Positions 28,508 to 52,930 of a stretch of DNA of 64,000 nt are shown piece by piece; position 1 is the stretch's first letter; every line of letters begins with the position of its first letter. A program made the translations under genes and the position numbers. Source of the stretch: Pyropia yezoensis (Eukaryota; Rhodophyta; Bangiophyceae; Bangiales; Bangiaceae); NCBI GenBank assembly GCA_009829735.1, contig CM020619.1:11460375-11524374 (forward strand). Direction: 5' to 3'. The notes under the pieces are model-generated. The model was given only the letters and a program-made list of their open reading frames with translations, ran no database searches and had not been told where the DNA came from.

Positions 28508-28975
28508 TGTGGCAAAAACCACTCGCACACGCGGCACCCAAGTTGGGGCGGTGTACTAGGGCTGCCTCCCGTGTCGGGGGAACCGGAAGAAGTGCAAGTC
28601 GCACACACTCTGTCCCTGTTGTGGGGCAAACCCCCCACTGACAAACAAGAGGATGGTGTGTGGTCCAACAGTTTCTTGGTCGGGACGGGGACGCAGGGCC
28701 AAGCCCCGCTGTCCCTCCCCTTATCCCCCCAGGGTCCACTCAGAATCTCGCCACTCAGAATCTCGCACCCCAGCACCTGCCCACCGGGCCACACGAAAAT
28801 TCAAGACGATAAATGCAGAAAACCCTCAAATCCAAGTTGGATTTACTACTAAGCTAACTATCCCAAACTTAGGGAATCTGGACCCAAATGCAGGGGGAGG
28901 AACGGATCAGGCTAGTGGCCTGCCGCCCCTTGCATGGCACGTGTTGCCCCCCTACCTGGGGGTCAATACTGCCAC
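28508..28975 (-). repeat. Element A 3' LTR
   Basis: 468 bp, almost identical to 37417-37884, with a third copy reversed at 60438-60907. In element orientation it starts GTGGCAGTATTG and ends TTTTTGCCACA, giving short inverted termini. Confidence 0.93.
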
Positions 28976-28990
28976 GCTCCCCTCTCCTCA
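28976..28990 (-). other. Element A polypurine tract
   Basis: In element orientation, gaggagaggggagc directly precedes the 3' LTR. This is the expected site for plus-strand DNA priming. Confidence 0.65.
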
Positions 28991-29291
28991 GTTCCGACCG
29001 ACCCGGTCGGCCCTGTGAAGGGGTGCGTAAACGCACGTCTCGGCGTTGGGGGCGCGACTTGCTGTCCCCCATCGAGTACGTAACGCGGATGTGGAGGCGG
29101 TCACGTTGAACGCCCCTCTCCTCAAGCTTGCCCACTCGGCAGCTTGCTCTCCTCGGTTCACACTTCACCATCACCACCACATCCCCTTCACCTTCCACGG
29201 GGCCGCCCCACGCTGGGGAGGCCACCCGTCTACCCACGATCCGAGCCCCCCTCAACTCGAGGCGGGTCTCGTGCCGCTGTAGCCAGGGCGT

Positions 29292-29312
29292 CTCTCCCCA
29301 ACTTGGGGAGAG
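29292..29312 (+). promoter_or_regulatory. 21-nt perfect hairpin abutting the antisense ORF start
   Basis: Arms ctctccccaa and ttggggagag (10 bp each, 1-nt centre) end two bases before the ATG at 29315. In an mRNA this would be a stable stem at the start codon. The same CAA-C/G-TTG core recurs across element A. Confidence 0.6.
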
Positions 29313-29314
29313 CC

Positions 29315-31258
29315 ATGGCGACCCCGGGAGTGGAGACGGACTCTCTTGACGAGCGTATGGAGGATACCACCTACGGTGCAGCGCCCGCCGGAACTTCCGG
29401 CGGGGGCTCCGCGATCGCTCCGGGGGATGGGACTCCCGCGTCACCCGGCTGTGGGTTGACGGCGGGATCTCCCCCGGAGGCGGGACAAGTTGTCCCGCGT
29501 GAGGCCTTGGGGCGGTTGTTTTACCCCGCTTGGCCTCTATATGAGGAGGGGTTGACTGTTCTTCGCTGTGGCCGACTTGGCGCAGCGATGGGTCGGGTAT
29601 GGGACCGCCTACGGGAGAAGTATCCCCGTAGGGTCGGGTTCCCTGCCGGCTTCAGGATGGACCAGTTTGCCTTCCTGGACGACGAGGAGGTCGAGGACGT
29701 ACAGCGTGCCAAGGCCATGGTGGACCGCGGGGGAACTATCCCGGGTCCCGGCGACTTGCCGACCTTTACTTGGGACGCGGTGGCAACTCGCCCCCCGTAC
29801 CTTCACGAGGCCGATCCGCACACTCATCACTTTGATGTGCGGATGGAGAAGGACTTCCGGCGAGGTCCCTACTTGGTGACCTCGGCTCAACTTGAGTTTC
29901 CTCAGCAGTCTGCTGCCAGTAAGGAGCAGTACTATCCGAAGAAGCCCGAGTGGTGGCCTCAAGTTGAGGTCCCCTACGGGTTCCCGGCGTTGCTGCCACG
30001 GTTGGGTGACCACTTCGGCTCCGTCATGTTGACGGCTGGCCCTGATCACCTGGTGTGGGCCATATTGGCCACCTAGTGGCTCCTCGAGGTCATGTCGACC
30101 TGGGTGTCTTGTGTTCAGCGGCGGGGGATGCTCTGGCATCTCCCCCTTCGGCTTATCCAAGGTTTGGAACAGCTCACCCCTCAGCTAGTTGCTGAGGGGT
30201 GCTCATCAGGACAACTCACTCTACTTGAGGAGATGCTCCGCCTCCACAAGTTTATCGAGTGGGAGAGCATTGAGCACAAGTTGCGCCGCCCCACTCGTGG
30301 GCCCAAGGACGATGGCGCACTTCGCCAGTTCGTGTGGGTCGCTCGTGAACTTCACGACGGCCGTGTGGTCCTACGAGAGGGGTTGGGCATCGGGGACTAC
30401 CCGTATGCCCCGGGGGTGGATCGCCACACTGCGCCACCCCCGGACAAGCCCATAGTTATGGCCGTGCCCTCATATGATGACCATATGACTCAACCCACTG
30501 CGGGGGCCCCAAGTCGGGGTCGCAGTTACACCCGGGTCCCGCCACCTCGGCGTGCCCCTCCGCTTCCTCCTGTCCCCTTCCAGCCGCACGGGAACATCCC
30601 GATTAGCGTGGCCGTTGAGTCGTCCACCCCGGTGTCCCCCAACTTGGGGGCCACCCTCCTGACGGTATACCCCAAGTTGGTGTTACCGCCCACGCCTCTA
30701 ACCTCAGAGATGATGATCACCACGTTGGTGCGCACCATTTCCTGGTTGGCCGCGTCGACCGCAACCCTTCAAACTTCCGAGACTCCTCAACTTGAGGAGC
30801 GCGTTCGTACTGCAGTGGCGACCGCGAGTTGCGAGTCGGTGGCGGAGTTTATGACGGCCGAGTTGGCTCGCATTGGGGCTATTATGCCCCAACCAGCCCC
30901 ACTTGGGCGTGGCAAACGTCGTGCGAGCCGGGCATACTCGCCTCCTCGCCGTCGTCGCCGACGCTCGCGGCGCTCTCCCTCTGTGTCGGAAGACGAGTTG
31001 TCCTACTCCGTCTCGGAGTCCTCGACTCCGTCAGAGTCGGAGTCGGTCCGGCGTCTGCGTCGCCAGCTTGCGCGCAAGACTAAGCAGAAGAGCGGCCGCG
31101 GTCGTCTCCACTTGCGCGACCGTGAGGGGCGCGACGGGTACGACTTGGAGCCGCCGCCCCCTCCGACTGGTGGGGAGCGTTATCGCCGTGGGTCTCGCCG
31201 CTCGCCTCTACGTGAGGGCGAGGGCCGTGGAGTTGGAGAGTCTAGCATGCATGCCTAG
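29315..31258 (+). CDS. Element A antisense accessory ORF (interrupted by one TAG)
   Basis: It runs opposite to gag-pol, from an ATG in agccATGG to a stop at 31258. The frame is continuous over 648 codons except for TAG at 30074-30076. The N-terminal half is Gly/Pro-rich, then globular (about 29,480-30,300). The block LV[ST]x4EFx5Ax4YYPK (29,870-29,941) is shared with the antisense ORF of element B. So are the later W-L-x-E-V, LWxLP and a LT-containing helix (30,077-30,190). The TAG falls one codon before WLLEV, inside the conserved part, so it looks like a lesion rather than a true end. The C-terminus is Arg/Ser-rich (RRRRRSRRS and RRLRRQLARK) and could bind nucleic acid. No known family was recognised. 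Antisense ORFs are known from some plant gypsy elements, but their products are mostly unexplained. Confidence 0.75.
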
Positions 31259-31370
31259 TTGGCAGCTGCCTTTGTTGTGAGAGTGTGAGGGGTTAGGGCT
31301 GTAGTTAAAAGCCACTCTGCGTACCACTTCGACCTGAAGCACTCTCTTGGCACCGTTTCTCGGCCTTCCC

Positions 31371-34300
31371 TCACGTTGAGGGAGGGCTGTTAGGGTCTAT
31401 CTCATTCCGGGCACAGTAGGCCCGGACCTTCTCAGCGGGAAGGTCCTCCACATACTCCCACGTATCATCCTTGGCTTTGTAGCCAAACCAACGCACCCTC
31501 AACATGAGGCGGTCAGTGTCTTCATCCCATCCGTGGTCGATGAACTTATCGAACACGTACTCCTGCGGGCCCTGTTTGGCCGCAGGCAATGAGGGGAGGC
31601 GCCACGCTTCCAGAGCACGCGCCCAAGCTGGGTCGCCTGCAGGCGGTGGTGCAACTTTGACCACGTCCTGTCCGTTCACTGTGCGGACTCCATCGTCACT
31701 TTCGATGGTGAAGCGCCGCCCATCAGTACGAAGGACCTGGTACGGCCCCTTCGTCTGGAATACCAACTTACCCCCAGTTGGGGTGTGTGAGTGTACCAGC
31801 ACCCAGTCACCCTGCTCGGGGACATGCTTGGCGTTGCGCACCTTTTTGTCAAAGGTACGCTTGTAGCGCTTTTGTGCTTTGTCCATCTCAGCCCTGACTT
31901 TAGGGATGAGGTTTTCAAGCCTAGCAGCGAACTCCGCCTTACTCTCAGTAGGAGTAGGCGTCCTGCCACCATCCTCCCTAGTTGGGAGCGACCGCCGCAC
32001 AGCGATAGACCGCACGCGACGGGGGGTCACAAAAGCGAGGGGTACTTCCCCAGTAGATGAGTGAACCTGCGAATTGTAGGCAGTAGTAAGAATAGAAATG
32101 TATTGGTCCCACGTCTTCACGTGCTCACTCACATAGTGGCGCAGCTGCCTAACAATAGTTTTGTTGAAGCGCTCCACCTGCCCATTAGTTTGTGGGTGGT
32201 AGGGGGTGGCATAGTTTGCCTTAACCCCCAACATATCCAGCACTCCCTGAAACAGTACAGACGCAAATTGCGGTCCATTGTCCGATAGTGTACTATCTGG
32301 GATGCCATACGCGGCAACCCAGTGATCTAGGAAGGCTGACACGACCGACATGGCCGTGATCTCTGCCAGTGGGATCGCTCGCGTAAGTTTCGTGAAGCGG
32401 TCACAGATGACCAGGAGGTACTGGTTGCCCTCCTCGGTCACTGGCAGTGGCCCAAGGATGTCCATCGCCAACGCAGCGAAGGGCTCCTTGGCCGGGAACA
32501 ATAGCATAGCCGTAGTAGGCCGCCGTTCCATCAGACGATTCTGTGCACAACTTGTGCAGGCAGCCACCCAACTGTAGATGTCCACCACCATGGACGGCCA
32601 GTAGTACCTGGTCCTCAGGGTCTGGTACAGTTTACTAGACCCCAGGTGTCCACCCGTGGGAGCGTTGTGCTCCCTCTCAAGGATACTGTCCTTGAGGGAT
32701 GCGGGGACGACAAGTTGTTCGGTCCCCTGGAATACCCCCCTCCTCATGAGGAGGCCATCGTCTCCCAGAAAGAAACGCGTCTCCACCACTGTATCCAGTG
32801 TATCCCTCTGCGACTTGCAGAAGGGATCCTCGGCCTGGGCCATCACCACCTCGTCCAGGGACAGGGGCAAGTACTTCTTGTTCCCTGGCGCCTCGGGGTT
32901 CAACGCCTGACCCGAGCGCGTGACTACCCCCCCGATGGGGATGTCCTCATCGACTGGGTTAGTGTCCAACCCCTCGGTAGGTACCCGAGAGAGGCCGTCG
33001 GCAAGGGCATGTTGCCTGCCAGGTCGGTACTCAATATCGAAGTTGAAGGGTGCCAGTTGCACCCTCCACCGATTGAGACGAGTGTTCGTACAGTCCGTCT
33101 TGAAGATGAACTGCAACGCGCGGTGGTCACAGCGGATGAGGAACTTCTCACCCTCTAGGTAGTGACGAAGTGACGTCACCGCCCACACCACTGCGAGTCC
33201 TTCAAACTCGGTGACTCCGTAGTTCTTCTCGGCCGAGTTCAGCCCCTTGCTAAAGTATCCCACCGGCAAGTACTCCTTGTCCGGCTGCTGCTGAAGCAAC
33301 ACACAACCAAGTTGGTCGTAGCTAGCGTCCACATCCAGGATGTAGTGGCCTCCCAACCTGGGAATAGCCAGGATAGGAAGCTTCAGCAGAAGGTCCCGAA
33401 GAGTCTCAAAGGATTCCTGCTCCACCCGACTTGGGGGAGGCAGGTTCTTCGGTAGCGTTGAGCTAACTAGCTCATTCAACGGTTTCGCCACCTTGGCGAA
33501 GCCCTTGGTGAAACGTCGGTACACGTTACACATCCCGAGGAAGCTCCTCATCTGGGTCTGGGTCCGGGGGTACTGAGCCTTACGGATGGCCCTCAAGTTT
33601 TTCTCGTTGACACTGAGACGCCCCGGACGGACAACATGTCCCAAGTATTCCACCTCTTGAGTGAAGAGGTGACACTTACTCGCCTACAGTGACACACCGG
33701 CGTCAGCAAGTAGCTTGATCACCTGGCCAAGATGGCCAATGTGTTCCTCCGGACTTCGGGAGAACTCAATGATATCGTCTAGGTACACGAGACAGATCTG
33801 CCACCGTACTCCGGCCAGAATCATGTCCATAGCGCGCTGGAAAGTTGCCAGCGCGTTACACAGGCCAAACGGTAGACGCTTGCACTGGTAGGTACCACAG
33901 TGATAGGTAAAGGTAGTTTTATGCCTGTCTTCCGGGGCAATGGGAATTTGCCAGTACCCCGCGTTACAGTCCAGGGTAGAGAACACGTTGGCCTCCCCCA
34001 GGGAGTCCAGACAGTCGTCCATCCTAGGTAGGGGATAACTGTCCTTCATCGTGCTCTCGTTGAGCTTACGGTAGTCGATACAGAACCGGGGGGTCCCATC
34101 AACTTTGGGGACGATAACCACCGGACTCGCCCACTCGGCGTTACTGGCCTCGATCACATCGAGGGCCTCCATGCGAGCAACTTGCTCCTTAAAGAGGGCC
34201 CTTGAACGGGATCCTCCCCTATACGGCTGTTGGCGTATAGGGGGTGCACCGGGCTTCAACTCAATCCGGTGTTGGGTGGCTCTCATGAGTCCCAATTGAC

Positions 34301-35354
34301 CATCCCACAACTTGTGATATTGGTCCAAGAGGCGTTCAACTTGAACCCTCAACCCGGGTGGGACACCCTCCATGTTCACATGCGGCCGAGAAGAGGCGGA
34401 CGACTTGGCTTGATGCTTCTCCTTTCCGGACTTCGGGTCGCTACTTGCGCCCGCGTTGAGGGTGACCGCTACTACCGGTCCCTCGTGTTGGTCGATATAG
34501 CCGAACTTGGCTCCCGACTTGAAGTACTTGGGCGACGAGCTCAGGTTCATAACCTGGATCCTCCACGGGACTCCGGCTTTGGAGTCCATCATGCCAAGGG
34601 CAACATGCACTTGGAGCTTGCGAGCAAGACGGGGGTAAGGGTGCACCAACCCGTTCCCCGTATAATCAGTTACAACATCAACGTGCGCCACCGAGTTGGG
34701 GGGCAACGTGACTTTACGGGCTAAACGCAGGGTAGCAGTAAACCCTTCCCTCACAGAGCAAACAGGCTTCGACTGTGAGACTGTCACAGGAGCCACAGAC
34801 TTTCCCTTACCAAGGATGGGGATAGTCTCCCCATTCATCAACTTGACCCAGTACTCAGGGCCACAAATCAAAGGCACTTGTGTAACAACATAAGGGGTAC
34901 CCAGAAGCAGGGGTACCGATATATTCTCAACTACTCCATAGGTCACGTCGACCTCATGGGTCCCCAACCTAAATGGTAGGGTCACGGCACCAACGATGGG
35001 AAGTACCCCACCATTGATATCGATCAGATGGTCAGCTTTAGACTTCCAGCGTTGGAGCTTCACCTCCTTTGGTAATAGCGACTTGCGTATCAAGGAGGCT
35101 CCTGACCCGGTATCAAGTACGATACGGGCACAGCAGGCACGGCCGGGGGCAAGTTGCACCCGTCCAGCCACCTGGAAGTTCTCACCCGTCAGCACCGCGA
35201 TGACCCGACGTGGGTTTACGTTCTTGGGGAGTCCTACCCGAGGTGGGCGGACTCCCTTAGGTCGCCGCAGTATCCGGCACGGTTGATTCGTCCTCTTGGC
35301 CCACTTGGCTGAGGCTGCCGTTGTGAGCTTCGGACGGCCAGCCCCAACGGTCAT
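31371..35354 (-). pseudogene. pol: Element A pol: protease, RT, RNase H, integrase, chromodomain; one in-frame stop
   Basis: One frame of 1,328 codons broken by a single TAG at 33684-33686, inside RT. Aspartic protease: LDTGSGAS near 35,100. RT: DNAGYWQIP equivalent DCNAGYWQIP and YLDDI (about 33,771-33,785). The usual 'FGLTNAPATFQ' reads FGLCNALATFQ. RNase H: DVDASYDQLG and FLIRCDHRALQF. Integrase: HHCC finger (HNAPTGGH ... CTSC), then D-D-E residues in DILG, SDNGPQF and GQVERFNKT. A C-terminal chromodomain (VRWFGYKAKDDTWEYVEDL, about 31,430-31,560) makes it a chromovirus-type Ty3/gypsy. Its start overlaps the gag stop (ATGA), but the G_GGA_AAC site suggests -1 frameshifting from gag. Confidence 0.93.
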
Positions 35355-35356
35355 TC

Positions 35357-35363
35357 GTTTCCC
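35357..35363 (-). promoter_or_regulatory. Programmed -1 frameshift heptamer, element A
   Basis: GGGAAAC, read as G_GGA_AAC in the gag frame, two codons before the gag stop. A -1 slip enters the pol frame exactly. The same heptamer in the same register is present at the end of gag in elements B and C. Confidence 0.75.
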
Positions 35364-37141
35364 GCCGACTTGGCGTCCGAATCTGAGGACGAAGGGGAAG
35401 ACGACGAGTCCGAGGACGACGTGTCCGCCCCCTTCGTCGAGGGTGTGGCGACCGCCACCACCGGACGAGACCCACCCTCGCGGCGTGAACGTACTTTGTT
35501 CGTAGCCGACTTCTTACTCGCATTCCTAACAAGTTGTTGGATGCGTTTACTCAACTTGGGGCAATCATATGCCCAGTGTCCATCGGAGTTGCAGTTCCAA
35601 CACCGATTGTCAGTTCCCGGAGGGGTCTTCCCGACTGGGGAAGACGAAGAGGTACCCTGGGAAGTTCCCACGGCAGCTACCACCCTCTCCTTGCGGATTC
35701 GGCGTGCCTCTCTCAACTCTCTGGCCTGGCGCGCCTCCTCGCGTTCCTTGGCCAATTCGGCGTGACGCTCCTGGCGTTGTTCCTCCCGCAACTTGCGGTA
35801 GGCCTCACCTCTGCGGTAGGCGAACCTAGCCAACTCGGCCAGGGTCGCCCGGGCAGTGTTATGCTCCCGGGTCTCCATCCGGACTGACCAATGCAGTCCC
35901 TCCACAAACCGACTCTTCACCACAGCTTGTGGATGAAGAAACCCACAAAGATTGTTGAGCTTACGGACTCGCTCCGCAAAGGACAACTCGTCCTCCGCCT
36001 CTTCCTGATGGGCTTGCGTAAACTCCTCGACTTGAGAAGCCAACGCCGCTTCATCAACCATGGCCCTCAACAACCAGTTGACGAGCTCCAAATAGGACGT
36101 CACCTCCCCAGCGCCTCCACTTGAGGAGCTGGGCATGACGGACATAAGTTCTCTCCGCAGGTCGCCCCTCGTAAACTCCTGTAGCATGTAAAAAGCCATG
36201 CCTTCACTCATGGCATTGTCGTCACAGGCTTTTGTGAAACGACGTAGGAACTCAAAGACACGGAGGGGGGGAGTTCCATCCCACTCCGCTTTGTGCCGAA
36301 AAGAGTGAAATGCACTCTTCTTGGCACGGCCCATGGCTCGGGCCTGGTCAGGACCATACGCCACCGACTTGTTGTGGAGGGCGTAGGTCTCACAATCAAA
36401 GATCCTCTGGTAGATCGGGTTGGCTACCTGGATCTTGGGCGGCACCTCACGTTGAGGGAACAGCCGCTGTGACACTGGGGTAAGTTCACCCTCAGTGCCT
36501 GTAGTCCGGCGCGGCGCGCTTGGTGTAGCCGCCGGCGTTGCCGGGGGAAGCTCCCCCGTAGAGGGCGTATGCCCCACCGAGTATGGTGTGGCTCCCTCGT
36601 TGGGAGTCACAGGTGCCGCCCCCAGTTCGGGGCGACCAGAGGTAGGCGTCAAGAGGGATTCCCCCTGCGCCTGCGGGCTCGAAAGCCCCGATCCGGTCCG
36701 GACATTAAGGCCATCTGGCAAACTCGCCACAATCTGATTCAGAATAGTATTTGTCATCGTGACCACCACGTCCGGCAAAGTTTGCCGCAACACGTTGGTC
36801 GCCTCCCGACGGACAGTTTCCGCGAGGAGTGGATTATCGACTCCAGTTTAGTCTCGGTCCGCCTCCGGGAGTCCACCTGAGGGGTAAACACGATCCTCAG
36901 GGGTCTCAACCGGGGGCATGGGCGCGAGCCCATCGCCGACCAGCGGAGGTCCGCCGTCCTCCGAAAGCCTACTTGGCGACGGCTCCAAGCCAAAGTTGGC
37001 TCCAACCCGAGTGGGACCCGCGGGGACAGTCCTCTCACCTTGGGACGTTCCCGTTGAGTGTACCACGCGGTGGCCAGACTTCGGCCCACGCACATCAGAA
37101 GTGTCACCCGAATGAACTCCCGACTGAGTCTGGGTGGCCTG

Positions 37142-37297
37142 TTACCCGACCGTACTTCTAGTCCTGCCGGCTTGAGGGACCTCTAGTCCCTCTGCGACCC
37201 CAGGTAAACCCACCTTTGTCTCACCAGTATTCAAAGGCACTGAAGTACGTGCGTCACCCGTGTACTCCCCGGACGACGGGGGGTCCGAACTAGCCAT
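37142..37297 (-). CDS. Element A 51-codon leader ORF (conserved with element C)
   Basis: A strong-Kozak ATG and 51 sense codons (MASSDPPSSGEYTGD.. start) end in TAA, in frame with the downstream gag region. Element C has the same ORF and stop at 61027-61182. It is either a regulatory upstream ORF or the N-terminus of gag cut by an inherited stop. Confidence 0.5.
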   Translation of the reverse strand: MASSDPPSSGEYTGDARTSVPLNTGETKVGLPGVAEGLEVPQAGRTRSTVG

Positions 37298-37397
37298 GGT
37301 GGCTAACGATCCGTATGACACGGTCCAAGTCCACCGTTCCTCTGAGACAGAGGGCCCCCTACACCCGGGTGCACCCGGAGGTAAAGTTTACCTCTGT

Positions 37398-37414
37398 CCC
37401 CTGCTGCTCCACCA
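37398..37414 (-). other. Element A primer-binding site
   Basis: TGGTGGAGCAGCAGGGG, two bases after the 5' LTR in element orientation. It is identical in elements B and C. It would pair with a tRNA ending CCCCTGCTGCTCCACCA, and it is not the common plant initiator-Met PBS. Confidence 0.75.
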
Positions 37415-37416
37415 AA

Positions 37417-37884
37417 TGTGGCAAAAACCACTCGCACACGCGGCACCCAAGTTGGGGCGGTGTACTAGGGCTGCCTCCCGTGTCGGGGGAACCGGAAGAA
37501 GTGCAAGTCGCACACACTCTGTCCCTGTTGTGGGGCAAACCCCCCACTGACAAACAAGAGGATGGTGTGTGGTCCAACAGTTTCTTGGTCGGGACGGGGA
37601 CGCAGGGCCAAGCCCCGCTGTCCCTCCCCTTATCCCCCCAGGGTCCACTCAGAATCTCGCCACTCAGAATCTCGCACCCCAGCACCTGCCCACCGGGCCA
37701 CACGAAAATTCAAGACGATAAATGCAGAAAACCCTCAAATCCAAGTTGGATTTACTACTAAGCTAACTATCCCGTACTTAGGGAATCTGGACCCAAATGC
37801 GGGGGGAGGAACGGATCAGGCTAGTGGCCTGCCGCCCCTTGCATGGCACGTGTTGCCCCCCTACCTGGGGGTCAATACTGCCAC
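37417..37884 (-). repeat. Element A 5' LTR
   Basis: 468 bp, same length as the LTR at 28508. The differences seen are two bases near 37,775 and one near 37,801. Confidence 0.93.
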
Positions 37885-37901
37885 CCCCCCCGGCTGGGAT
37901 G

Positions 37902-40373
37902 TCAACCCAGGTTGATGCCCCGTCGCGGCGTGTTGCGGGAGCCGTCCGATGTCGTCTTGGAGGTGACGGTTGGGTGTAGCAGTCCGGTGGCCAGCGCGAC
38001 GGAGAGCGCGTTTTTTGGCGCGGGGCGGCAAAAAGTGGGCTTGGAGAGGGGGTCGGCGGGGTTGTGTTCGCCAGGTATGTGGAAAGCTCGGCGATGACGC
38101 CGGTGAGGAGGGAGCGGCGGAGTACGAGCAGGTCGTTTTTGCCGCTCATGTCAGCGGGGTCCAGGAAAGATGTGACGCTGTTGTAGAGCGTAGCTGAGTC
38201 CGTGTAGGCGTCGAGGGGGATTTTGTTGGTCCATCAGCTCCTCGAGAAGTTGGCGGATGTCCAGGGCGGCGGCCACGGCGTCGGCCAGCGCGAGTAGCTC
38301 GCCCGTCGTCGTGCCGCGGCAAACGCGTGAGGGGCGGTGCGATGCCCAGTGTAGACGGGCAAAGCGGTGCGTGCTGTCCGTGAGGACGATGATGTACCCG
38401 ACTTGGCCTTTGGCAAAGGCCGACTCGGTGGACCCGGAGTAATCAGCGTAGACGGCGACGCGCAGGCTGTCACGGTCCAGCTTTGGGAAGGTGAGCGTCA
38501 TGGGGCGGTGATGGAGGATGGCCAATATGTCGTTGGCGCGCTTGGCGTCCGTCCCCGTGGGCTCCTTCATATTGGCCAGATGAGTGGCGTTAGTCAGGCT
38601 GTCGGGCCTGCCGCAGCGGCCGACCCAGAGGAGCTTGGCGGCGAGGGAGTGCAGAGCCTTGCCCGAGGGAAGCTTGTCGTTGGCACGGGCTGGCACGTCG
38701 ACAGGGTTGACGGTGTCTGCGCATGCGCCAGCGCTGCAGTGTATGCCGTTGTTGTCCGTTGTGGCCGTGATGCCCGCGAACTGCACGGCGCCGCGGTCCA
38801 CGCGGTGGGTCTTGTACTGGGCCCTTACGGTTTCGATGGCGTCCATGAAGCGTTTGTTGCCAATGGAGAGAGAGTCGTCGACGTACGTTGCGAGTGCCCC
38901 TTGTTTGGGTATGATGTAGATCGTGTCGAACACCGCACTGAGGATGATGCCCGGGATCTTGAGGAACCGGCCTTGGGTGTCACAGTGAAAATGGCGCCCG
39001 GCGTCGTCCTTGCCGTTCGGAGCGGCAGAATGCCCAGACGTAGCCCTCTGGCTCGCCTGCCTCAGGCGGGATGCGCACGTAGATGGGCGCGTCGAGGATG
39101 TCTGACGCAGGTAGGCGCGGAGGAAATCTTCTGTGTGAATGGGAAGGTCCATGACGGCGGCCGCGGCGACGAGCGCCCGGATGGCGCGTTGTGGCGTCAC
39201 CGGGGAGGTAGGTACGTTGAGGTCCTTGATCCAGTCTTCGTTTCCTGCGATGCAAAAGCGCGCCCGCTCGTCGGGCTTGCCATTTCCGCGGTTGGCCTTG
39301 TGGGTGACTCGCCAGGTGTAGTTGAATATTTGCGTCCTCGCTGGCACCTCGGAGATGTGGATCGTGTTCTTGCAGTCGATGGCGTCGAATACGGCAAGCT
39401 CGGTGCGCTTGGCTGTGTCCCATCGCGGGTGGCGATGCGAGTTTGGGTTGATGCGGTCGGCATCGTAGACTCTGGCTGCTGGCGGGAGCTCGGCGGCAGG
39501 TGAAGGAGCCGGCGTGTGGGTCCGGAAGAGCGGGGGCGGCGGCAGGGTTGGCGGTGTGTCACCGCTGGAAGTTGTAGGGCGTGGGGTGGGCTTGCGCGCT
39601 ACGAATGGCTTTGTGCGTGACTCGTGGGAGGAAAAGACCTTCTCTTCCCGTCGCACGTAGACAGTTTAGCCGTCGAGGGAGTGGATGACGCCGCGTAGCC
39701 AGCCGTGGCGCTCTCTGTGGAAGAGCACCTCCTGGCCGACCTCAACGTACGGAAGGACCGTCCCGGGGTGCGACAGTGCGCCGCGCAGTCGGTCCGCGGC
39801 GGTGTGCCGCTCCATGGTGGCGCGCGCGACCTGCATTGCGCGCGCGCGGTCTGCGATGGACGACGCGGCGTGGGCGATATCGCCAATGAGGAGGCGGGGT
39901 GGCTCGCCGGTTACGGCGGTGGGGGGCGCTATCCCGTGCGCGCGGGGCGCGTCGTTCCGCGCCTTGTAAGCCATGGCGAGCGCCAGGTCTGTGGCCAGGG
40001 CGGAAGTCTCCGACATGATGCGGAGGTAGGCGTCGCGGATGGGGCCGTGATGGCGTTCGTTGCGGCCGATGGACCATGGGGTCTCGGTGGGTGCAACGCG
40101 CCAGTGGATGCCCATTGAGTTAAGCGCGTTGACGACGACGTCGTTTTTCGCTTCTGAGCCGCGGTCTGTCATGACGGTTATGGGGCAGGCGTGGATGACC
40201 AGCCACGCGAGGTAGAGCAGGACAAAGATGATCTCGCCACGCATATATGAGACAAATCGGCCTTGCCCATAGTCGGTGTGTGGACACGTGATGTCGAGCA
40301 CCTTGAGCGCCGTCGGTGAGATTTGGAAGACTTCCATGGCGATCGTCGGTGACCGGAACCACATGCAAGTCAC
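37902..40373 (-). pseudogene. pol: Ty1/copia pol remnant (integrase, RT, RNase H)
   Basis: From high to low coordinates: integrase core with a TDRGSEAKND block and PTETPWSIGRNERHHGPI (D and E of the DDE set), then TAA at 39666-39668 in the same frame. RT follows, with a frameshift near 39,080-39,120 (IYVRIPPEAGEPEGYVW lies in another frame) and the YVDDSLSIG catalytic box. RNase H then has VYADYSGSTES, and a late segment with LLVLRRSLLTGVIAEL has further frame changes before TGA at 37902-37904. gag, protease and LTRs were not found. The 5' end stops abruptly near 40,373. Element A sits immediately beyond its 3' end. Confidence 0.85.
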
Positions 40374-41534
40374 TCACACACACTGCATGGCGTTGTATTC
40401 CACAATTTTCCATTGCAACGTACTGCAACATCACGCGAAGACCGTCCACTGATGAAAAAAGAGCACCACTGCAATACATGTCATGACTTGTGTATCGCCG
40501 CATCTTCCTGTACTTCCCTGCGGTACAGATCCCTCATGCACATCACCGCCCCTCACACACTGGCCATCGCGACTCCGACAGTCGCATCGGACAAGCTGGT
40601 CGAGTCGCGGACGACGGAATATCGACCTTTCGTTCTCCGCGCCTATGCGCCCGGCCGCCAGTGTCGTCTTCGTTCAAAACTCATCGCTGAAGAGTCCACC
40701 AGTTCTTCCGACCCGACCAGATCGCGCGGTCCGGACGTTTCAGGACATCTGATTGACCACACAGCCTGGCCCGAGCCTCCATTCACGGAGGCTACTTTTT
40801 GACACCCCCTCCTGACCATGCTCAGTTGCGCATCTACCGACGCCAGTGAGCTGATTCTGGACTCAGCGAGTCCCAAATCGCACCACGACCCTCCATAAGT
40901 GATGATCCGGTTCCCGGCTCGCACCCCTCTCATATTCCCACACAATGCACCTCCCGAGAATCATCCTTGGTGAGGGATACGGTCGTTTCTTCGCTCAAGT
41001 CGGGGGACTATTGACTTGGTACAGTCGCGGAGAGCAAGAGCCTGTGAGCTCACCCGACCATGATTGAAGATTTCACTCAATGGCCTCTCCTTGCAACGTC
41101 CTGAGCCATCCCCACCCCTATTTCCCGGAATCCTTGTCTGACCCTTCAAATCACGGTCAATCGCAGCTGCTGATGCTGTCCGACCCACCTTTCCTTCCGC
41201 CCTCCAGCCCTCTCGCTTGCCCATGTCGACCCCCTTTCCAAGAAGGGCTCTTGATTCATTAAATCAGCTCATGGATCGTGAGGAAGAATGACGAAGGGTG
41301 CAAGACGCTCAACATACGCACTTCCACTTGGCACAATCGCTCATTGTCGCTTCAGAGAGAAACATTTAAGTCGATACATGGTCATACAAGCAAGCACCAG
41401 AGAACACACTCCCGAGGCCCACAACGACAGTATGGAAAAGACAGAATGGAAGTATTTCCGAGTTGCAGTCAAATGCAGTGTGTATACAGAGGATTGCAGA
41501 GCAAGACATCGAAAGACACGTACGACAAAGCAAC
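40374..41534. other. Spacer between the copia remnant and element D
   Basis: No recognisable ORF product, LTR or inverted terminus was seen. It may contain the left end of element D. Confidence 0.4.
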
Positions 41535-42629
41535 CTAACAAGCAAATGCATTGACGAAGAAGCGTCGCTGGTGGAGGTCACGTGCATCAATCGGGTGCGT
41601 TGTCGGAAAGTCAATGAGGCCGTTCCGCACCACCCAATCGTCCCAGTCGAGCTCAACACAGAGCACCTTTGTGATGGCACTCAAATCAATGGCTTCAAGG
41701 TCTGCCTCAGTACAACCCTGCTGATGAACCCAACGCAGCCGGGTGCACCCATAGGCAGAAAAAGGGCAGTCCGGTACTGCAGTTGTTGCTTCTACGCGCT
41801 CGACGACCACAGTTCTGCGGACCGACCCGTTCAGGCTCACCACCAAGACACAGGCTCGTCCGTATCGCTCCGAGCCGTCGGACGCCCGGTAGTTCACCCA
41901 GTCAAACCATGGACGGCCCTTGAGATTGGCTGTCGCCCATGAAGTCGACCGACGTCCGTCCGCCTTCTGCGGCACCTCCTCCGAGAGCCACACACCGGAC
42001 TGCAAGACGACACAGTCAGATGCATCACATTGCAATGCGTCTCAGAGCTTGGGCAGGCTTAGATCAACCGCGAGGTTACCAGCTGAGCACGGCCTGCCGC
42101 GTGTCCTTACCCGCCTGCGCCGGTTGCCCTCCCGCCTGACTGCTTTCTGCTCCGCCCCCAAAGGCGAGATGAGGGTCGATATCTGCTCAGCCAACACCAT
42201 CTGTAGCGCTGCATGTCCGCGGTTCTTGTCGGTGAGCTGGAAGGCCCGCTTCACGTACTTGTGCAGCGCCTCGTTTGCGCCGGTGTTGCCGTCAATCACA
42301 CTCGCGCGCAACAAGAGCTCATCTTTGAGATGAGATACAGTGCGATGCACCTTGCTGGTGTTGGTCTCGCCAAACAGCTGGTAGAAGTCATTCTCGACCC
42401 ACTCTGAAAACCGCTCGCACAGGTCCTTGGCATCGCGCCACGTCTTCGCCCGCGGATCGAAGAAGTCCCTGAGCAGCGCCGCCAGCTCACAGATGCTCCA
42501 TGTCAATATCCCATGGAATCGACGACTGGGCGCACCACGCCTATACAAGCCTGCGACCGCAAAAGGCAGGAAATGCACAGCGTCGCGGTGCTCCTTGCCT
42601 TTCAGCGTGGCTTGCAACACACCCGGCAT
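41535..42629 (-). pseudogene. Element D: C-terminal part of tnp2-like transposase
   Basis: Two open stretches in one frame (42042-42629 and 41535-42035), separated by a TGA or a very small intron ending cttgcag near 42,000. The first has VENDFYQLFGETNTSKVHRT and TGANEALHKYVKRAFQLT. This resembles the 'TKvHrl.Hl...G....aNEa.HK..K..y..Tn' block of large tnp2/CACTA-related transposases (Transposase_21 group). The second has WFDWVNYRASDGSERYGR, CTRLRW and VLCVELDWDDW. This fits the C-terminal accessory domain of the same proteins. The N-terminal pieces lie at 42983-43847 and, beyond element B, at 53503-54820. Confidence 0.6.
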
Positions 42630-42982
42630 AGTGAAGTAGACGGGGGCTACAGAGGGGACTTGATGGGTGCGGCACGCGAAGCGGAACCGCTTGTCAGCGT
42701 GACGTATCGACTCAGTGTCTGTCCCATGGAGGAGAAGTCCCTGTCGCGCAGTTGCCTTCGCGTAGTTCTACACGCTCTTTGTCAGATCCCGACAGATACC
42801 AAGATCGATCACCTGGCGAACGAGACGACCAGGCCATAACAAGGAGTGTAATGCGGTGCGACGTCTGTCTCGTCACGTACATGATCAGTAATTGGCAAGA
42901 ACCTACAGGGAATGACAAACATACACGGTTATCTCGTACCGAAGACAGCAACATACAGCGACATACAATCAACAACAGCACG

Positions 42983-43847
42983 CTACCGACACAAACATAA
43001 ACGAAATGGTAAACGTACATGCAGGCGGTCGAATCCGAATATCTTGTAGAGCAGAAGACAGCCCAGACCCGCCCAAGCTGCCAGTGCAGGTACGATGCAG
43101 TGGAAACTATACTTCATCTCCATTGCATCAATCATGACACCCGCACCATAGGTCCCTCTCATTCGAGCTCCCTTGAGTTGCTTGCCCACCATCTTCAACA
43201 TGTTGCGCTGCTTGTGTGGCACACTCGGCCGACGACCACAGCTGCCTAAAGGAGCCATACAAGGTGTACAGCTGAAGGCCGTATCGTGCCTCATCATAAA
43301 CACAATGTCTCGTTCCTCAGGCTGATCACTGACATACAGTACAACGCGAGGCGATACAATGCCTTGCGTACCGTCCAGCGTGGTAACTGCAACGCCGAAG
43401 TGACTCGCACACATAAGGTCGCCAAAGGCCAGGTTGAGCGTGTGCTGCAACACCTGCGCACGCGCTGCAGCGGCGTTGGATGCCGAGCACTTCTGGAAGT
43501 CTGCCCACACCTGTGGAACATGTACCACAGTCACCCAAGCAGGCACACGCGACAACAAGTTCATAATCCTCATTCTTATCGGGTAAGCAGACACACCTGT
43601 GGAAAGGCATGGCGGTGACCAAATGTGCGGACACGATGTCAGTATGGTACACATCGTGCAACGCAACAAGATACAACAAAATGCAAGTCGATGCATCACC
43701 TCCACAATACAAGGCGACGCACATACGCATCAACGCAACGCTGACGAAGCGGTGGCGCCACATACTGCAGAATGAACCCAATGGTCGCCAAAGGTGGCAA
43801 GTGGCATGTCTTACCTCCAGAGGTGGTCACGACAGTACCGTCCGAGA
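42983..43847 (-). pseudogene. Element D: middle part of tnp2-like transposase, cut by element B
   Basis: Starting at the element B junction (43847) the frame runs DGTVVTTSGGKTCHLPPLAT. A probable intron follows (gtattgtg ... ttccacag, about 43,702-43,594). The next segment has VVHVPQVWADFQKCSASNAA and YVSDQPEERDIVF, then a Cys-rich stretch (SCTPCMAPLGSCG). 'Y-x-x-D-Q-P-E' followed by paired cysteines is typical of tnp2-like transposases. It ends near a possible donor at about 43,017 (gtacgt). Confidence 0.55.
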
Positions 43848-44419
43848 TGTTGTATAAAACTCGATCCTCTCAGACACGTGTCAATATCCCTCGGGGGAAA
43901 GGGACAGGTAACACAGAAAGGGGAACTACGAGAATGGTATGCCTGTTGCCTCACGTGCCTGCTCGCCGAGCAAACAGATGCGCACGGTAGTGCACACGGG
44001 GAAGAGGAAAGCAAACGCGCAGTTGTCTTTCTCCTGAGGGCGCGGGCCAAGGGCGCCTCGCTGTCCCTCTTAACGTGCATCTGGGGGAGCCTCGGCACGT
44101 TGGCCAGGTATCCCCCCCCATAACCCCGAGTGGCCCCGACCCGAGTCTAACCTCGTCAGGTCAGGGGCCACTATCACTACTAATTCTATTCCCACTCACT
44201 AATCTCACACTCAAATTCTCTCAAATCAAGTCCCTCACAAGTATGCAAAAACCCATCAGAAATCCTTCTCTCACGTGTGGATAGCGTAGTCCACCGCATC
44301 CCAGTGCCGGGCACGGGCCACGGCCGCCAACCATCACCACACGGCGGGCGTGTTCTGGCACCTGGTGCCCTCTGGTTGTAGTCCCGGGTCGGCGCCAAGT
44401 CGGGGCCAGGGATGCTACA
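43848..44419 (-). repeat. Element B 3' LTR
   Basis: 572 bp, nearly identical to 52931-53502. Its ends are TGT.. and ..ACA. A purine-rich tract (agggagggagcta in element orientation, 44420-44432) adjoins it as the likely polypurine tract. Confidence 0.93.
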
Positions 44420-44606
44420 TAGCTCCCTCCCTAGTCCGGCACGTCTTCGGGCCGAACCAGGTGCCACCGTGCACAGCCACGAGCACGTCCACACCGGTGC
44501 CGAGGTCGAGCGTCTTCACCCCGGTCACGATCACCTGCTCCGATTCTGTCCCCCCCCCCTTCTCCTTCACCTCGGCCCTCTCGTTCCCCCCCGGATTCTG
44601 GACGTC

Positions 44607-46724
44607 ATGTCCAGTTCCGAGATCCAAGCTGGGCCCGTGGTTCCGGCGGCGAATGTTGCGGAAGAGAACTCGGGTAGTCGCGCCCCTCTCCTGCCTCCGG
44701 TTCCTCGAGTGTCGGTGCCGGCGCCGGTCGCCACGGCGGGGACGGATCGGGTTCCTTCGGCTTCTGCGGTGCACCCGGTCGAGACCCCCCCGGTGGGTCT
44801 CCCGGAGATGCTCCTTGGGCAGGATCCTCTGGCGGGCCGGCGCTACTCCACGGTGGTTGGCAACGCCAGCGCGGCCACGTGCCAACAGGACTGCTTGAAC
44901 ATCTGGCGCAAGGAACTCCAGCGCGGAGTCTTGACTGGGATGGATAAGACTCGTCTTCATACGGCAGACCAGATGCGCCTGGCACAAGACCGCTCCCAGA
45001 GCTTCTCGGGTTCTTCTTGGGTTGCTCGTCTGGAGGATCTGCCCTTCGCGCTGGTGCTGGATCTACCCTTGACCGAGCGTCGTGTATCCGCGTCCGTTCT
45101 CCGGTGGCCAGAGGAGGAAGGGTACGTCCACCGGGCACTTAAGGTCTGGGACGAGGCGCTCAAGGGGTCGGGGAGCCTGAACTGCGATCCCCGTCCGAGC
45201 ATGGTCGCTCTGGAGCTGCCTTTCCTGACTCGGAAATACTCCAAGTTGTCGCCAGCACGAGAGCAGGGTGAGCGACGCGGGCGTCAGCGTGACTTCCTCG
45301 TGAGCTGCAACCACCAGGAGTTCTGGAAGCTAAACAAGGCTAACCGGGCGGCGTACTACCCCAAGGTCATCCCGCAGCAGCAGGAAATCGAGATCATGGT
45401 CGGGTTTGCTCCATCCAGCATCTTTTTCACCTGGTACTTCTTGGACGCCTTGACTCAGGCGTCGATCAAGGGCTTCTTCCACTCGATCCCGTACATGATG
45501 TACACCTCCGAGATGACGGTCTTGGCGGCCAATCACTGGCTCCACGAGGTCTTGGTGTCCAACCGGCTTTGGCTTCTCCCCGACCTCCTGATGATCTGGA
45601 TTGTCGACAAGTTGACCGTCGACTTCCTGTGCAGCCAGGATGAGGAGTACAAGGAGCTCTTCCAGGCGATGATTGACTTCCGGCGTCGGCTGCCGGTGCA
45701 TGACCGGAGCTTCTTGAACGCGATCGCCGACCAGAACAGTCCGCGTCGGGATGGCTCCGGTTGGGTGCAGGTGGTCTACCAGTCTTCTCCGGTCAAGGTG
45801 CAGCTAGCGACACCGCTTCCGGGGTGGCCGCAGCTAGGCAGCTTTCCTGTTCCGGTCGCTCTCGATCTTCTGCCAACTGGGCTGCCGGTGCAACAGTCAG
45901 GGTGGGCCGCGGCGGTCGGTCGGGCGTCTGCGGCGGCTCCACTTGCTCCTGCTGCACCTGTCGTCCCGGTGGCTTCGCCTGAACCGTCGCCGGCGCGTCT
46001 GCGTCCTGCTCCGCTTGTGCTGGTGCTTCAAGCTCCTCCGGCACCGCGCTTGTCTGCCGCGAGTCTGGGGGTGGCTGTGCGGTCACCGACTACTCCGGCC
46101 GTTCCGCCTCGGACGCCTTCTTCAAACGTCGGCGGCCCTGTGCCTCCGCTGGAGTTGGGGACTCCGGTTTCTGGGGCTGTTGTGGACCGTCCGGTAGTGG
46201 CATCCTCGGGGCGGTTCGAGATCTCGGCGCCGACTCTGCGCCTTACCCGCTTCCGGGTGCCTGACTGGTACCTGAACCAAGGTGGCCCGACATGCGACCA
46301 GTACGACGTCGGTATGATTGAAGACCAGCTGGGTCGTCTTCCGGTGCAGGTTGAAGGCGTCGGGTCTTCCCTGGTGCTGGGTACTTACGCCAGCGTCTTG
46401 AACAACGTGGTTGACCGGGTTTTTGCTTGCGCGGACAGCGGCCAGATGTCGGACAGCCCGGTGGTTGGCGAACTTCTGGCGACTTTGACGCGGCATGGCT
46501 TGGCCCAACAGTGGTCAGAGACCTTCACTGGCTTCCAGGGGCGCCGGCAGGCATACCTGGATGAGCGGGAGCGCCCGGCGACTACCGGTACTACTCCGAT
46601 GGCGTCATACCGGGATGCACCGCGCCCACCGCACTACGTCATCCTGGCTTCCTCCGGTTCCCGTCGTGCCGCGGAGGCAGCGCTGGAGGACGCTCCCGCG
46701 GCACAGCGTCCGCGCCGGGAGTAG
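44607..46724 (+). CDS. Element B antisense accessory ORF (intact)
   Basis: An uninterrupted 705-aa ORF on the strand opposite to gag-pol, between the 3' LTR and integrase. The start is the ATG in gacgtcATGT. The N-terminus (about 60 aa) is Pro/Ala-rich. A globular region of about 350 aa includes the motif LV[ST]x4EFx5Ax4YYPK (45,294-45,365), also found in element A. Next are aromatic, hydrophobic helices (SSIFFTWYFLDALT; AANHWLHEVLV; RLWLLPDLLMIWIVDKLT). A Pro/Val/Ala linker and a final charged domain (about 46,220-46,724) complete it. No zinc finger, protease or envelope signature was recognised. Being open over 2.1 kb, at a codon usage unlike chance, it is probably functional or recently so. 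Confidence 0.8.
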   Translation: MSSSEIQAGPVVPAANVAEENSGSRAPLLPPVPRVSVPAPVATAGTDRVPSASAVHPVETPPVGLPEMLLGQDPLAGRRYSTVVGNASAATCQQDCLNIWRKELQRGVLTGMDKTRLHTADQMRLAQDRSQSFSGSSWVARLEDLPFALVLDLPLTERRVSASVLRWPEEEGYVHRALKVWDEALKGSGSLNCDPRPSMVALELPFLTRKYSKLSPAREQGERRGRQRDFLVSCNHQEFWKLNKANRAAYYPKVIPQQQEIEIMVGFAPSSIFFTWYFLDALTQASIKGFFHSIPYMMYTSEMTVLAANHWLHEVLVSNRLWLLPDLLMIWIVDKLTVDFLCSQDEEYKELFQAMIDFRRRLPVHDRSFLNAIADQNSPRRDGSGWVQVVYQSSPVKVQLATPLPGWPQLGSFPVPVALDLLPTGLPVQQSGWAAAVGRASAAAPLAPAAPVVPVASPEPSPARLRPAPLVLVLQAPPAPRLSAASLGVAVRSPTTPAVPPRTPSSNVGGPVPPLELGTPVSGAVVDRPVVASSGRFEISAPTLRLTRFRVPDWYLNQGGPTCDQYDVGMIEDQLGRLPVQVEGVGSSLVLGTYASVLNNVVDRVFACADSGQMSDSPVVGELLATLTRHGLAQQWSETFTGFQGRRQAYLDERERPATTGTTPMASYRDAPRPPHYVILASSGSRRAAEAALEDAPAAQRPRRE

Positions 46725-46869
46725 TACTTGGAGGCAATGAGGGTGAGAGTCTTGGGAGAAGCGGGGCGGGAAGAGGCGGAGAGAAGGGTTGCTCGAGCGG
46801 GTGCTTGTTTTTCTTGATTGTTCCGTGCTTGCATTGTGTGTTTTCCTTGATACACCTGTTCCCTTCTTC

Positions 46870-49800
46870 TCAATCCTCTTGTTCCGCGTCCGTAGCGGGT
46901 GAGCTCGTCTCGTCCCGAGGGTCTTGATCAGCCCAGTCCTCCTGGTTCTCCTCTGAGTCCGATTCCAGGACCTTGCCGGCTCTGGCCACCGGAGTGCCCT
47001 CAATCCCGTTCCGTCGCGTGTAGGCGCAGACGTCCGCGATGGGTAACCGGTTCGAGGGTTCCCAGGTATCATCTGCCGGGTTAAAACCGAACCAGCGTAC
47101 TCGCAGGTACAAGCGCCCATCTCTCCAGGCATGGTCGACAAACTTGACATAGACATATTCCCGGCCTTCTTCTTGGGATAGCCAGGGTACTGCGGCCCGC
47201 TTGCGCCGGGTCAAGTCCCGTTTGCTTGGCGGTGGAGCTCGGGTGACATGGTCGCTGCTCACCCGGTATGGGGAGCCATCCACGTCTAGAAGGAAGGTCC
47301 AGCCATCCGTATTCAGGATCTCATAAGGTCCATCCGTCTTAGAGTCCAGCTTCCCCCGGGTCTTGCGATGGTTGTCCACAAAAACCCAGTCGCCACCCCC
47401 CAGTTCCTTGTTCTTTTCTCGGACTCCCTTGTCATAGTCCCGCTTGTATCGCTCCTGGGTCTTTGAGATTGACTCCTTGACTCTAGGGAGCAGGAGCTTC
47501 AGTTGTTCCAGGAACTCATCCTTGGCCTTGGGACCTGACTTCAATGCAGGCTGGAGACCGTCTGGTATTCTCTTCAGGGAGAAGTTGGTCAGCCGCCTTG
47601 GGGTGACAAAGTCGAGTGGAGCGACCCCCGTTGTCCGGTGAACTCGGGAGTTGTAGGCTAGAGTGAGGACAGCCAGGAGCTCATCCCAGTCTTCTTGGTG
47701 CTCCTCCACGTAGTGCCGTAGCATATCCACTAGGGTCCGGTTGAATCGTTCCACCTGGCCGTTCGTTTGCGGGTGGTACGTCGTGGTGAACAAGTTTTTG
47801 ATGCCCATCAGGTCACAGACTCCTTGGAAGAACAGGGATGCAAACTGGGGGCCATTGTCTGATAAGACGGAGTCTGGAGGGCCGTATGCAGCTATCCAGA
47901 ACTCGCAGAAGGCTGACGTGACATCCAGAGCCGTGATGGTTCTCAGCGGAATTGCTCGAGTGAACTTGGAGAACCGGTCACAAATGATGAGCAGGTATAT
48001 GTTGCCACTGGATGTCTCAAGTAGGGGCCCCAGGATGTCCATGTTTAAGCTTGCAAAGGGTTCCGCCGCAGGAAACAGGCGGAGCTTAGAAGTCTTTTTC
48101 CTCTGGGACAACCGGTTCCTTGCACAGGAGATACAAGCCTCTAGACACTTGTGGACGTCACTTGCCATGGGTTCCCAGTAGTAGTGTCGTCGCATTGAGG
48201 CATACATCCGGTCGATGCCAGGGTGTCCGGCCTGGGGAGACGAGAGCTCCAGGCGAAGGATATCAGCCCGTAGACTCCGGGGTACTTAAACTTGAGTTGC
48301 CTCATCGAAGGGTGACACCCGTGCCAGGAGTCCGTCTGTAGACTCGGAGAAGCGACTGTTCCGGTTCACGTCCATTTGGTGGCGAAGCTCCAAGCATTGA
48401 GGATCCGTCAGTTGTGCCTCCAGCATCCGGTGAATGGTCACCGGTTGATGAGCTTCAGGTGTCTCATACAGGGGAGCATGCCAGCCACGTCCAACATTCG
48501 GGAGGATGAAGCAAGGTATTTCCTCCGGGATAGGACCGGTGTCGGCTGCAGGAGTCTCCAGCCGGGACATGGTGTCGGCGCAGTGGTGCTCCCTCCCTGC
48601 TCTGGTGCACACCTTGTACTTGAATTCCGAAAGGCGTAAGCGCCACCGGGCGACCCTTCCTTGGCTGCTGTCCATACATAGCAACCACTTTAGGCTGGCG
48701 AGGTCCGTCCGGATGAGGAACTCTTGTCCTTCAAGATATGGACGTAACAGGAAGCAAGCCCACACGACCGCCAAGCACTCGCGCTCCGTCGTGGAATAAT
48801 TCTTCTCGGCTGAAGTCAGGACGCGACTGTAGTAGCCTATCGGGAGGAAGTGCCCATCAGGTTGCTGCTGGAGTAGTGAGCACCCCACCTGGACGCCACA
48901 GGCATCAGTCTCCAGAACAAGCTGGCCCTCCCGCTTGGGTAACGCCAGTACTGGAGTGGTGGTCAGGCGCTTCTTGAGCTCTTCGAAGGCCGCGGTCCGC
49001 TTCTCGTCGAACACCGGGAGTTGTGCGGGAAGCTTCTTACTGGTGAGCTTGGTCAATGGCCGGGCCATCAGAGCATAGTCCCATACGAACCGGCGGTAGA
49101 TGTTGCACATACCCAGGAAGCTCTTGAGTTCCGTCTGGGTTTTAGGTTGCCGTGCATGCCGGAGGGCCTTGATGTTCTTCTCATTGACTCGGAGCTCCCC
49201 CGGACTCAGCACGTGCCCCAGGTACTCCACCTCAGTCTCAAACAGGTGACACTTCTCGGCCTTGAGGGTAACTCCAGCCTTGGACAGGAGGGCCAGGACC
49301 TCTCGAAGGTGCTCCAGGTGTTCAGTTGGGGTCTTGGAGAAAACTATAATGTCGTCCAGGTAGACCAAACATGTTCTCCACCTTAGCCCCGACAGGATGA
49401 TGTCGATAGCTCTCTGGAAGGTCGCCGGGGCATTGGTGAGACCAAAAGGGAGACGCTTGCACCGGAATAGTCCCAGGTGGCACGGGAAGGTGGTTTTGTC
49501 CTTGTCCTCGTCAGCCAGGGGGATCTGCCAGTAACCGGCATTACAATCCAGCGTCGAGAAGAGGGTGGCATCACCAAGAAAGTCGATGCAATCATCCATC
49601 CGGGGTATCGGGTATACATCCTTGACAGTCATCTCGTTCAGGCGCCTGTAGTCAACGCAGAAACGGAAGCGACCACCAGGTTTCGGGACGACTACCACCG
49701 GGAAGGCCCACTCGCCATCAGACGGCTCGATAACATCCATCTTGAGCATCTTGTTAACCTGCTTCTCAATCTCATCCCGGCGATGAGGTCCAGCTCGGTA

Positions 49801-52909: not shown

Positions 52910-52926
52910 CCCCTGCTGCTCCACCA
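52910..52926 (-). other. Element B primer-binding site
   Basis: TGGTGGAGCAGCAGGGG, four bases after the 5' LTR. It is identical to the element A and C sites although the LTRs are unrelated. Confidence 0.75.
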
Positions 52927-52930
52927 AATA

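Follow-up and report, generated by a model that had tools for sequence, protein, structure and literature searches.

Evidence for a conserved antisense protein-coding gene between integrase and the 3′ LTR of Ty3/gypsy elements in the red alga Pyropia yezoensis

The stretch of Pyropia yezoensis DNA analysed here (C2:11460375-11524374, 64,000 nucleotides, hereafter "the window") contains two complete Ty3/gypsy elements, A and B, whose gag-pol genes both lie on the minus strand. Each element carries, on the opposite strand and between its 3′ long terminal repeat (LTR) and integrase, a long antisense open reading frame (ORF), and a preliminary description of the window had placed both ORFs correctly. 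Comparison of these ORFs with each other, with further copies in the assembly (11 contigs, 107.5 Mb, the large contigs being 43.6, 34.3 and 29.4 Mb long) and with protein collections leaves us, as far as sequences can tell, nearly certain that they represent a real, conserved, protein-coding antisense gene. The features concerned are as follows:

29315 to 31258, plus strand: A antisense ORF, about 647 amino acids (aa) in open copies, interrupted in the window copy by a TAG at 30074-30076
29780 to 30268, plus strand: common core domain of the A antisense protein, which holds the shared motif at 29873-29941 and the TAG of the window copy
44607 to 46724, plus strand: B antisense ORF, 705 aa from the ATG at 44607, in a frame that is open from 44412
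45057 to 45719, plus strand: conserved core of the B antisense protein, with a median ratio of nonsynonymous to synonymous substitution rates (dN/dS) of 0.09, which holds the shared motif at 45297-45365

The B ORF is open over 705 codons from its ATG, as first described. Its region reaches an open run of 767 codons, whereas the longest runs in 300 mononucleotide shuffles average 191 codons and do not exceed 387. The A ORF had also been described as one long ORF, but the in-frame TAG that splits the window copy was overlooked; the longest open run of this copy (393 codons) is barely above the shuffled maximum (369). Of the 37 distinct A loci read in the assembly, 24 have the whole ORF open up to the end (among 40 A loci at least three, L041, L042 and L059, sit in the same elements as L021, L027 and L033), and the B ORF is open from 44607 in 17 of 20 loci. 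When all six frames of the window are translated, the motif LV[ST]x4EFx5Ax4YYPK is found once in each antisense ORF and nowhere else; the starts originally given for it were 3 bases too early. Sense-strand coding was rejected as the source of the open frame, since in window B and in L007, the main B type, the other five frames are interrupted by 14-22 stop-bearing codons. A B protein start at 44412, inside the LTR, is disfavoured: the interval 44412-44606 has no third-position excess (changes at codon positions 1/2/3 are 1/6/5, 1/6/5 and 2/4/5 in three pairs), and therefore 44607 is probably the earliest start of the protein.

Descent and selection rather than chance had been proposed to explain the shared position and motif. 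As regards selection, median dN/dS values (over sequence pairs with enough changes) of 0.21 for B and 0.15 for A, well below 1, bear this out. Specifically, the median is 0.206 for the B ORF (178 of 190 pairs of 20 copies, range 0.065-0.410), 0.092 for the B core (143 of 190 pairs) and 0.130 for the B integrase (153 of 190 pairs, range 0.050-0.880), and it is 0.151 for the A ORF (371 of 378 pairs, 28 distinct sequences, range 0.028-0.567) and 0.086 for the A core (335 of 378 pairs). The A set consists of the 32 of 40 loci with both ends in register, which gave the 28 distinct sequences, and copies with an internal stop were retained with the stop codons skipped. The B core is thus as constrained as the B integrase (0.09 versus 0.13), which is conservation like that of other element proteins. 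For window B and L007, dN/dS is 0.213, while neutral placement of the substitutions that separate them (200 placements) gave a mean of 0.84 and a minimum of 0.51, and context-matched placement (also 200) gave a mean of 0.73 and a minimum of 0.46. The changes between these two sequences fall 39/41/107 at codon positions 1/2/3 (frame from 44412). The remaining five frames comprise four with a dN/dS of 1.33-1.67, versus 0.21 in the ORF frame, and one, on the minus strand, with a dN/dS of 0.258 and 15 stop-bearing codons; a low ratio is expected in this last frame because its third positions face those of the ORF.

The antisense proteins fall into types that we call A to F (our own grouping, to which a formal family criterion was not applied), represented below by L028 (an open A copy), L007 (B), L061 (C), L064 (D), L067 (E) and L068 (F). 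Common descent of the A and B proteins had been claimed from the window alone, where the similarity is weak (BLASTP 2e-4); even L028 scores only 81 against window B (z 3.0), with the best of 300 shuffles higher at 97. Comparison of L028 with L007 settles the claim in its favour: E is 7e-9 over 166 aa as a single comparison (2e-8 to 4e-8 once the ends are trimmed), and the score reaches 127 (z 6.7, shuffle maximum 104). Profiles support it as well: the A and B profiles match directly at 74.6% (E 2.6e-5), and a C-F profile matches both the B/P0003 profile (hhalign, 98.7%, E 4e-16, 306 columns) and the A profile (95.8%, E 7e-9, 240 columns). The A-B homology is clear because types C-F match both.

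P0003 in the B profile is a protein from a profile search of a 5.8-billion-protein collection; it is 40% identical to B over 344 aa and 22% identical to A (E 8e-6). Among the 110 of 814 candidates in the assembly that were scored, none is more than 43% identical to it, so it is probably from another organism. Of the three database relatives, two correspond at 95-98% to copies in this genome. In the protein-database searches, three in all, the best 8000 candidates by common words were scored, and the N-piece of A was not queried separately. No relative was confirmed in bacterial/archaeal contigs or in viral contigs with B and A5 as queries.

Homologues beside other gypsy integrases, a further expectation from common descent, were found as well. 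We read six stretches (L061-L066) downstream of integrases on a list of the best 150 of 3515 first-look candidates, which does not include the weaker-scoring integrases of elements A and B, and four of the six hold a homologue. These are the C ORF of L061 (663 antisense codons, related to B at 8.6e-13 and to A at 9.6e-11), the D ORF of L064 (59% identical to C), an A copy (L066) and a C-like fragment of 156 aa (L063); types E and F were read in addition. The other two stretches carry different ORFs. L062 (C1:34415300-34417900), downstream of an integrase with a 1673-codon pol frame, has a sense ORF with a DLFANRANK-type motif, which we take to mark an additional RNase-H-like domain, followed by an Arg/Ser-rich antisense frame of 650 codons; this frame has no significant similarity to the antisense family, and at 70% GC chance frames are likely. 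L065 has at 18-2210 on its minus strand a 731-codon gag-like ORF, with a CCHC-like knuckle recognised by eye, downstream of the integrase at C3:10580523.

The position of the gene is constant. All 20 B loci and all 20 A loci inspected have an LTR ahead of the antisense ORF. Integrase comes after the ORF in every one of 20 A loci and in 19 of 20 B loci, the A loci used for the two counts being partly the same. Genome searches scored the best candidates only, which favours close or intact copies, and all copy counts are therefore lower bounds; counts of stop-free or open A, B and C-like matches were made by hand. At least 58 B-type matches were scored, 49 of them without a stop, along with at least 149 A N-pieces (149 of 149 without a stop) and at least 105 A C-pieces (99 of 105). 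The A N-pieces are 96-100% identical to the window copy; a recent burst of A-family copies is suggested. With C as the query at least 67 matches were found, at identities from 100% down to 46%, and their position was judged relative to integrase, LTRs being outside this reading. Forty-five of the 67 are found 1237-2439 bases (median 1288) downstream of a listed integrase and on the opposite strand (43 integrase matches), none of the 67 has any of the three other arrangements within 5 kb of a listed integrase, and 22 have no listed integrase nearby.

The antisense proteins begin with a Pro-rich part, which leads to a core of some 150-300 residues and then to a variable linker and tail. Sixteen columns are invariant over eight aligned rows, including the E-F pair and one Tyr of the motif and a downstream Gly. 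Of the motifs first noticed in A and B, YYPK and LWxLP are not retained in C-F, whose proteins end in a common GSRVRGR-type motif. No membrane-like segment was found in the six proteins with a hydropathy window (highest 19-residue mean 1.54), and the A and B proteins have no similarity to A or B gag or pol (best E 0.16), so that descent from either was rejected. Scans of nine A/B proteins against PHROGs and of three proteins against NCBIfam (C-F outside both) gave no match, and PDB profile searches gave nothing credible (one no match at all, one a single match at E 0.68).

We think that the antisense gene is an old accessory gene of a Ty3/gypsy lineage, located between the 3′ LTR and integrase and read in the direction opposite to gag-pol, and would assign this reading a probability of roughly 0.6. 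Among types A-F, integrase identities of 0.43-0.87 and antisense protein identities of 0.20-0.66 are correlated (Pearson 0.987, Spearman 0.84; exact Mantel permutation 3/720). This co-divergence, together with the constant position, suggests that the gene was inherited with pol from a common ancestor rather than captured repeatedly. The proteins form three deep groups, namely A, B (with P0003) and C-F.

Several observations weigh against this reading. Two of the six stretches read downstream of integrases, L062 and L065, contain no antisense homologue. The co-divergence signal stems from the close C-F group, and of the deep pairs A-B is the most similar in integrase (identity 0.51) but one of the least similar in the antisense protein (0.20), so the deep order is not mirrored. 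The selection figures cover A and B only, and many C-like matches carry stops (26 of 67 are without one); some of these are fragments, and the C query starts 82 codons ahead of the first Met, so that early stops need not matter. With respect to function, the only two Pfam matches, at E 0.14 and E 0.18, are at chance level, concern a single protein each out of nine, and indicate no activity. The AlphaFold2 models (mean predicted local distance difference test scores of 31.5 and 42.5) are too poor for a usable fold; at this low confidence they are mostly helical in the core. A strong Arg/Ser-rich basic tail is present in A alone among the six types, and the RNA binding that had been suggested from it is thus not a family property.

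HBZ, the antisense gene of human T-cell leukaemia virus 1 (HTLV-1), encodes a basic leucine zipper (bZIP) factor that regulates the sense genes. It is expressed from the 3′ LTR as an antisense transcript and serves as the model for the mode of action proposed below, but the antisense proteins described here have no bZIP or other Pfam domain. Closer in layout are the plant aORF-3R ORFs (maize Grande gene23, rice RIRE2 and Silene Retand), which lie antisense between pol and the 3′ LTR as the A and B ORFs do. Vicient and Casacuberta (2020, PMC7264820) describe this layout for Grande, RIRE2, Retand, PvRetro13 and the fungal element Boty, and give the origin and role of such genes as unknown. The plant ORFs are reported to be conserved within lineages, with no established role (PMC7264820; Vicient 2025, PMC11963269); TRP28 is reported in 97% of Retand clusters (PMC11963269), and Grande gene23 is transcribed antisense from an upstream promoter into a product that is nuclear (PMC7264820).

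The red-algal proteins differ from these in several ways. Retand ORFs are reported to carry TRP28 (PF04195), whereas the A-F antisense proteins have none and the genome gave 0 matches at E up to 10 in a search made without a plant control. Retand belongs to a non-chromovirus lineage, whereas the integrase ends of A and B are chromodomain-like, just under the Pfam cut-off, and the hosts of Grande, RIRE2 and Retand are flowering plants rather than a Bangiales red alga. Boty of Botrytis cinerea, known also from Sclerotinia, is likewise a gypsy-type element with an additional antisense gene, brtn (PMC8365987; PMC7264820), but its hosts are fungi, and brtn is likened to the present genes by description, not by sequence. 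The envelope-like ORFs of Athila, Bagy2 and others also lie downstream of pol, but they are sense-encoded and some have transmembrane segments (PMC7264820), whereas the A-F ORFs are antisense and lack a membrane-like segment. No report of such an antisense gene in red algae was found in the open-licence literature, a search outside which most subscription papers and RepBase fall. The family had been called undescribed, and this holds as far as the searches of Pfam, PHROGs, NCBIfam, the PDB, the protein collections and the literature reach; the arrangement, antisense genes at this place, is however a known one. Thus, to judge from these comparisons, the protein family and the host lineage are apparently new and the architectural slot is not.

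What might the protein do? The gene probably helps the elements to spread, because selection kept it working as the elements diverged. A regulatory role is our favoured suggestion, but a tentative one that we hold at somewhat less than even odds. By analogy with Grande (PMC7264820), an antisense transcript would start from a promoter in or beside the 3′ LTR, where the antisense promoter of HTLV is also located according to the same paper; this transcript would be translated into an accessory protein, and the protein would act in trans on expression or propagation of the element. The probability not taken up by regulation and by the particle role considered next belongs to roles not listed here and to minor rivals.

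The most serious rival, unlikely in our estimation yet well ahead of the others, is that the protein is structural or particle-associated and assembles with Gag or with the pre-integration complex, for example in packaging or nuclear entry. Selection on the B core as strong as that on the B integrase would suit such a role, and the Arg-rich tail of A copies could bind RNA or serve nuclear import; this tail is however not found in B-F, the A and B proteins resemble neither gag nor pol, and a separate antisense transcript would seem an awkward supply of particle proteins. Far less probable is that antisense RNA pairing with gag-pol RNA is the selected feature and coding a by-product. Non-coding antisense transcripts are reported for other retroelements, with a regulatory role considered possible (PMC7264820), but RNA pairing predicts no codon pattern of the kind seen here (39/41/107) nor a dN/dS so much lower in the ORF frame than in four of the five others, and it is strongly disfavoured as the sole function. 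We give equally little credence to a captured host gene that hitch-hikes on the elements and functions in the host: an unknown host source is conceivable, since no relative outside elements was recognised, but the gene lies beside integrase in many copies of several types and under selection, where a host-serving copy would presumably need one locus only, and the two database relatives that match this genome closely match its copies. An envelope-like or cell-to-cell spread protein in reversed orientation is slightly less probable again; the place between pol and the 3′ LTR is that of retroviral env, but the ORF is antisense to the genomic RNA and none of the six proteins has a membrane-like segment. 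Finally, the frames might have been chance products of GC-rich DNA and the motif a coincidence. The modest open run of window A and the weak direct match of window A to window B could have spoken for such an artefact, but it is refuted by long homologous antisense frames at a constant position in six types, by profile E-values down to 4e-16 and by the dN/dS ranges of both A and B.

If the antisense gene is an old accessory gene with a regulatory role, then a red-algal Ty3/gypsy lineage may have evolved a new antisense regulatory family independently of flowering plants, fungi and deltaretroviruses, one that counters host silencing or tunes sense expression; we consider this possible but hold it a little less firmly than the regulatory role itself. 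If true, an antisense regulator was already present in the ancestor of element types that are now about 43-51% identical in integrase, and it would be a convergent solution of LTR elements on several branches of life. A family without detected relation to TRP28 occupies the same slot in a red-algal lineage, and selection keeps the protein in two diverged elements, which suggests that a gene in this arrangement arose at least twice among LTR elements; the usefulness of antisense ORFs to an element thus becomes testable by comparison. Given how numerous the elements are (at least 149 A and 58 B matches), the protein may be of consequence for the growth of this genome.

The host elements themselves have the features expected of Ty3/gypsy elements, namely paired LTRs, a primer-binding site, a gag with CCHC, and the order protease, reverse transcriptase, RNase H, integrase. 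Their parts, all on the minus strand and with domains identified by Pfam, are as follows:

28508 to 37883, minus strand: element A, Ty3/gypsy, with paired LTRs 98.9% identical and ends at TG...CA from the sequence
28508 to 28974, minus strand: A 3′ LTR, the end adjoining the antisense ORF
31371 to 33653, minus strand: A RNase H, integrase and a weak chromodomain match (Chromo 20.2 bits, cut-off 25.1)
33684 to 35354, minus strand: A protease (weak, E 0.0056) and reverse transcriptase
35351 to 36793, minus strand: A gag with a CCHC zinc knuckle
37397 to 37414, minus strand: A putative primer-binding site, 18 bases identical to that of B
37417 to 37883, minus strand: A 5′ LTR
43847 to 53502, minus strand: element B, Ty3/gypsy, with paired LTRs 98.95% identical
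43847 to 44419, minus strand: B 3′ LTR
46870 to 48207, minus strand: B integrase and a weak chromodomain match (Chromo 24.8 bits, cut-off 25.1)
48286 to 50829, minus strand: B protease (weak, E 0.0039), reverse transcriptase and RNase H
50958 to 52841, minus strand: B gag, weak CCHC (E 0.15), 27% identical to A gag by direct comparison
52909 to 52926, minus strand: B putative primer-binding site, 18 bases identical to that of A
52930 to 53502, minus strand: B 5′ LTR

The chromodomain-like C-termini of both integrases thus score below the Pfam cut-off. The two elements had been described as having unrelated LTRs and diverged pol genes; pol is indeed 40-50% identical, but the LTRs do share one 34-bp stretch (82%, E 0.007). 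The same 18-base putative primer-binding site is present in both elements despite the otherwise unrelated LTRs, and because of this identity a single kind of tRNA probably primes both A and B. The window itself gave no tRNA or Rfam match. The B LTR (43847-44411) differs by 1.6-3.7% from those of L007, L009 and L018, and the neighbouring ORF by 6.6-8.0%; the low LTR divergence may reflect an exchange of LTRs among subfamilies or constraint acting on them. In B gag a long run of Arg precedes a stretch rich in Ser and Glu, an arrangement like that in the tail of the A antisense protein, which is first Arg-rich and then Ser/Glu-rich. A third, partial A-family copy (LTR and gag side) lies on the plus strand at 60439-63121 of the window and is 95% identical to 35202-37884 inverted, the match stopping short of the antisense ORF. 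At 56373-56618 the window also contains a 117-base unit in two tandem copies that are 76-83% identical.

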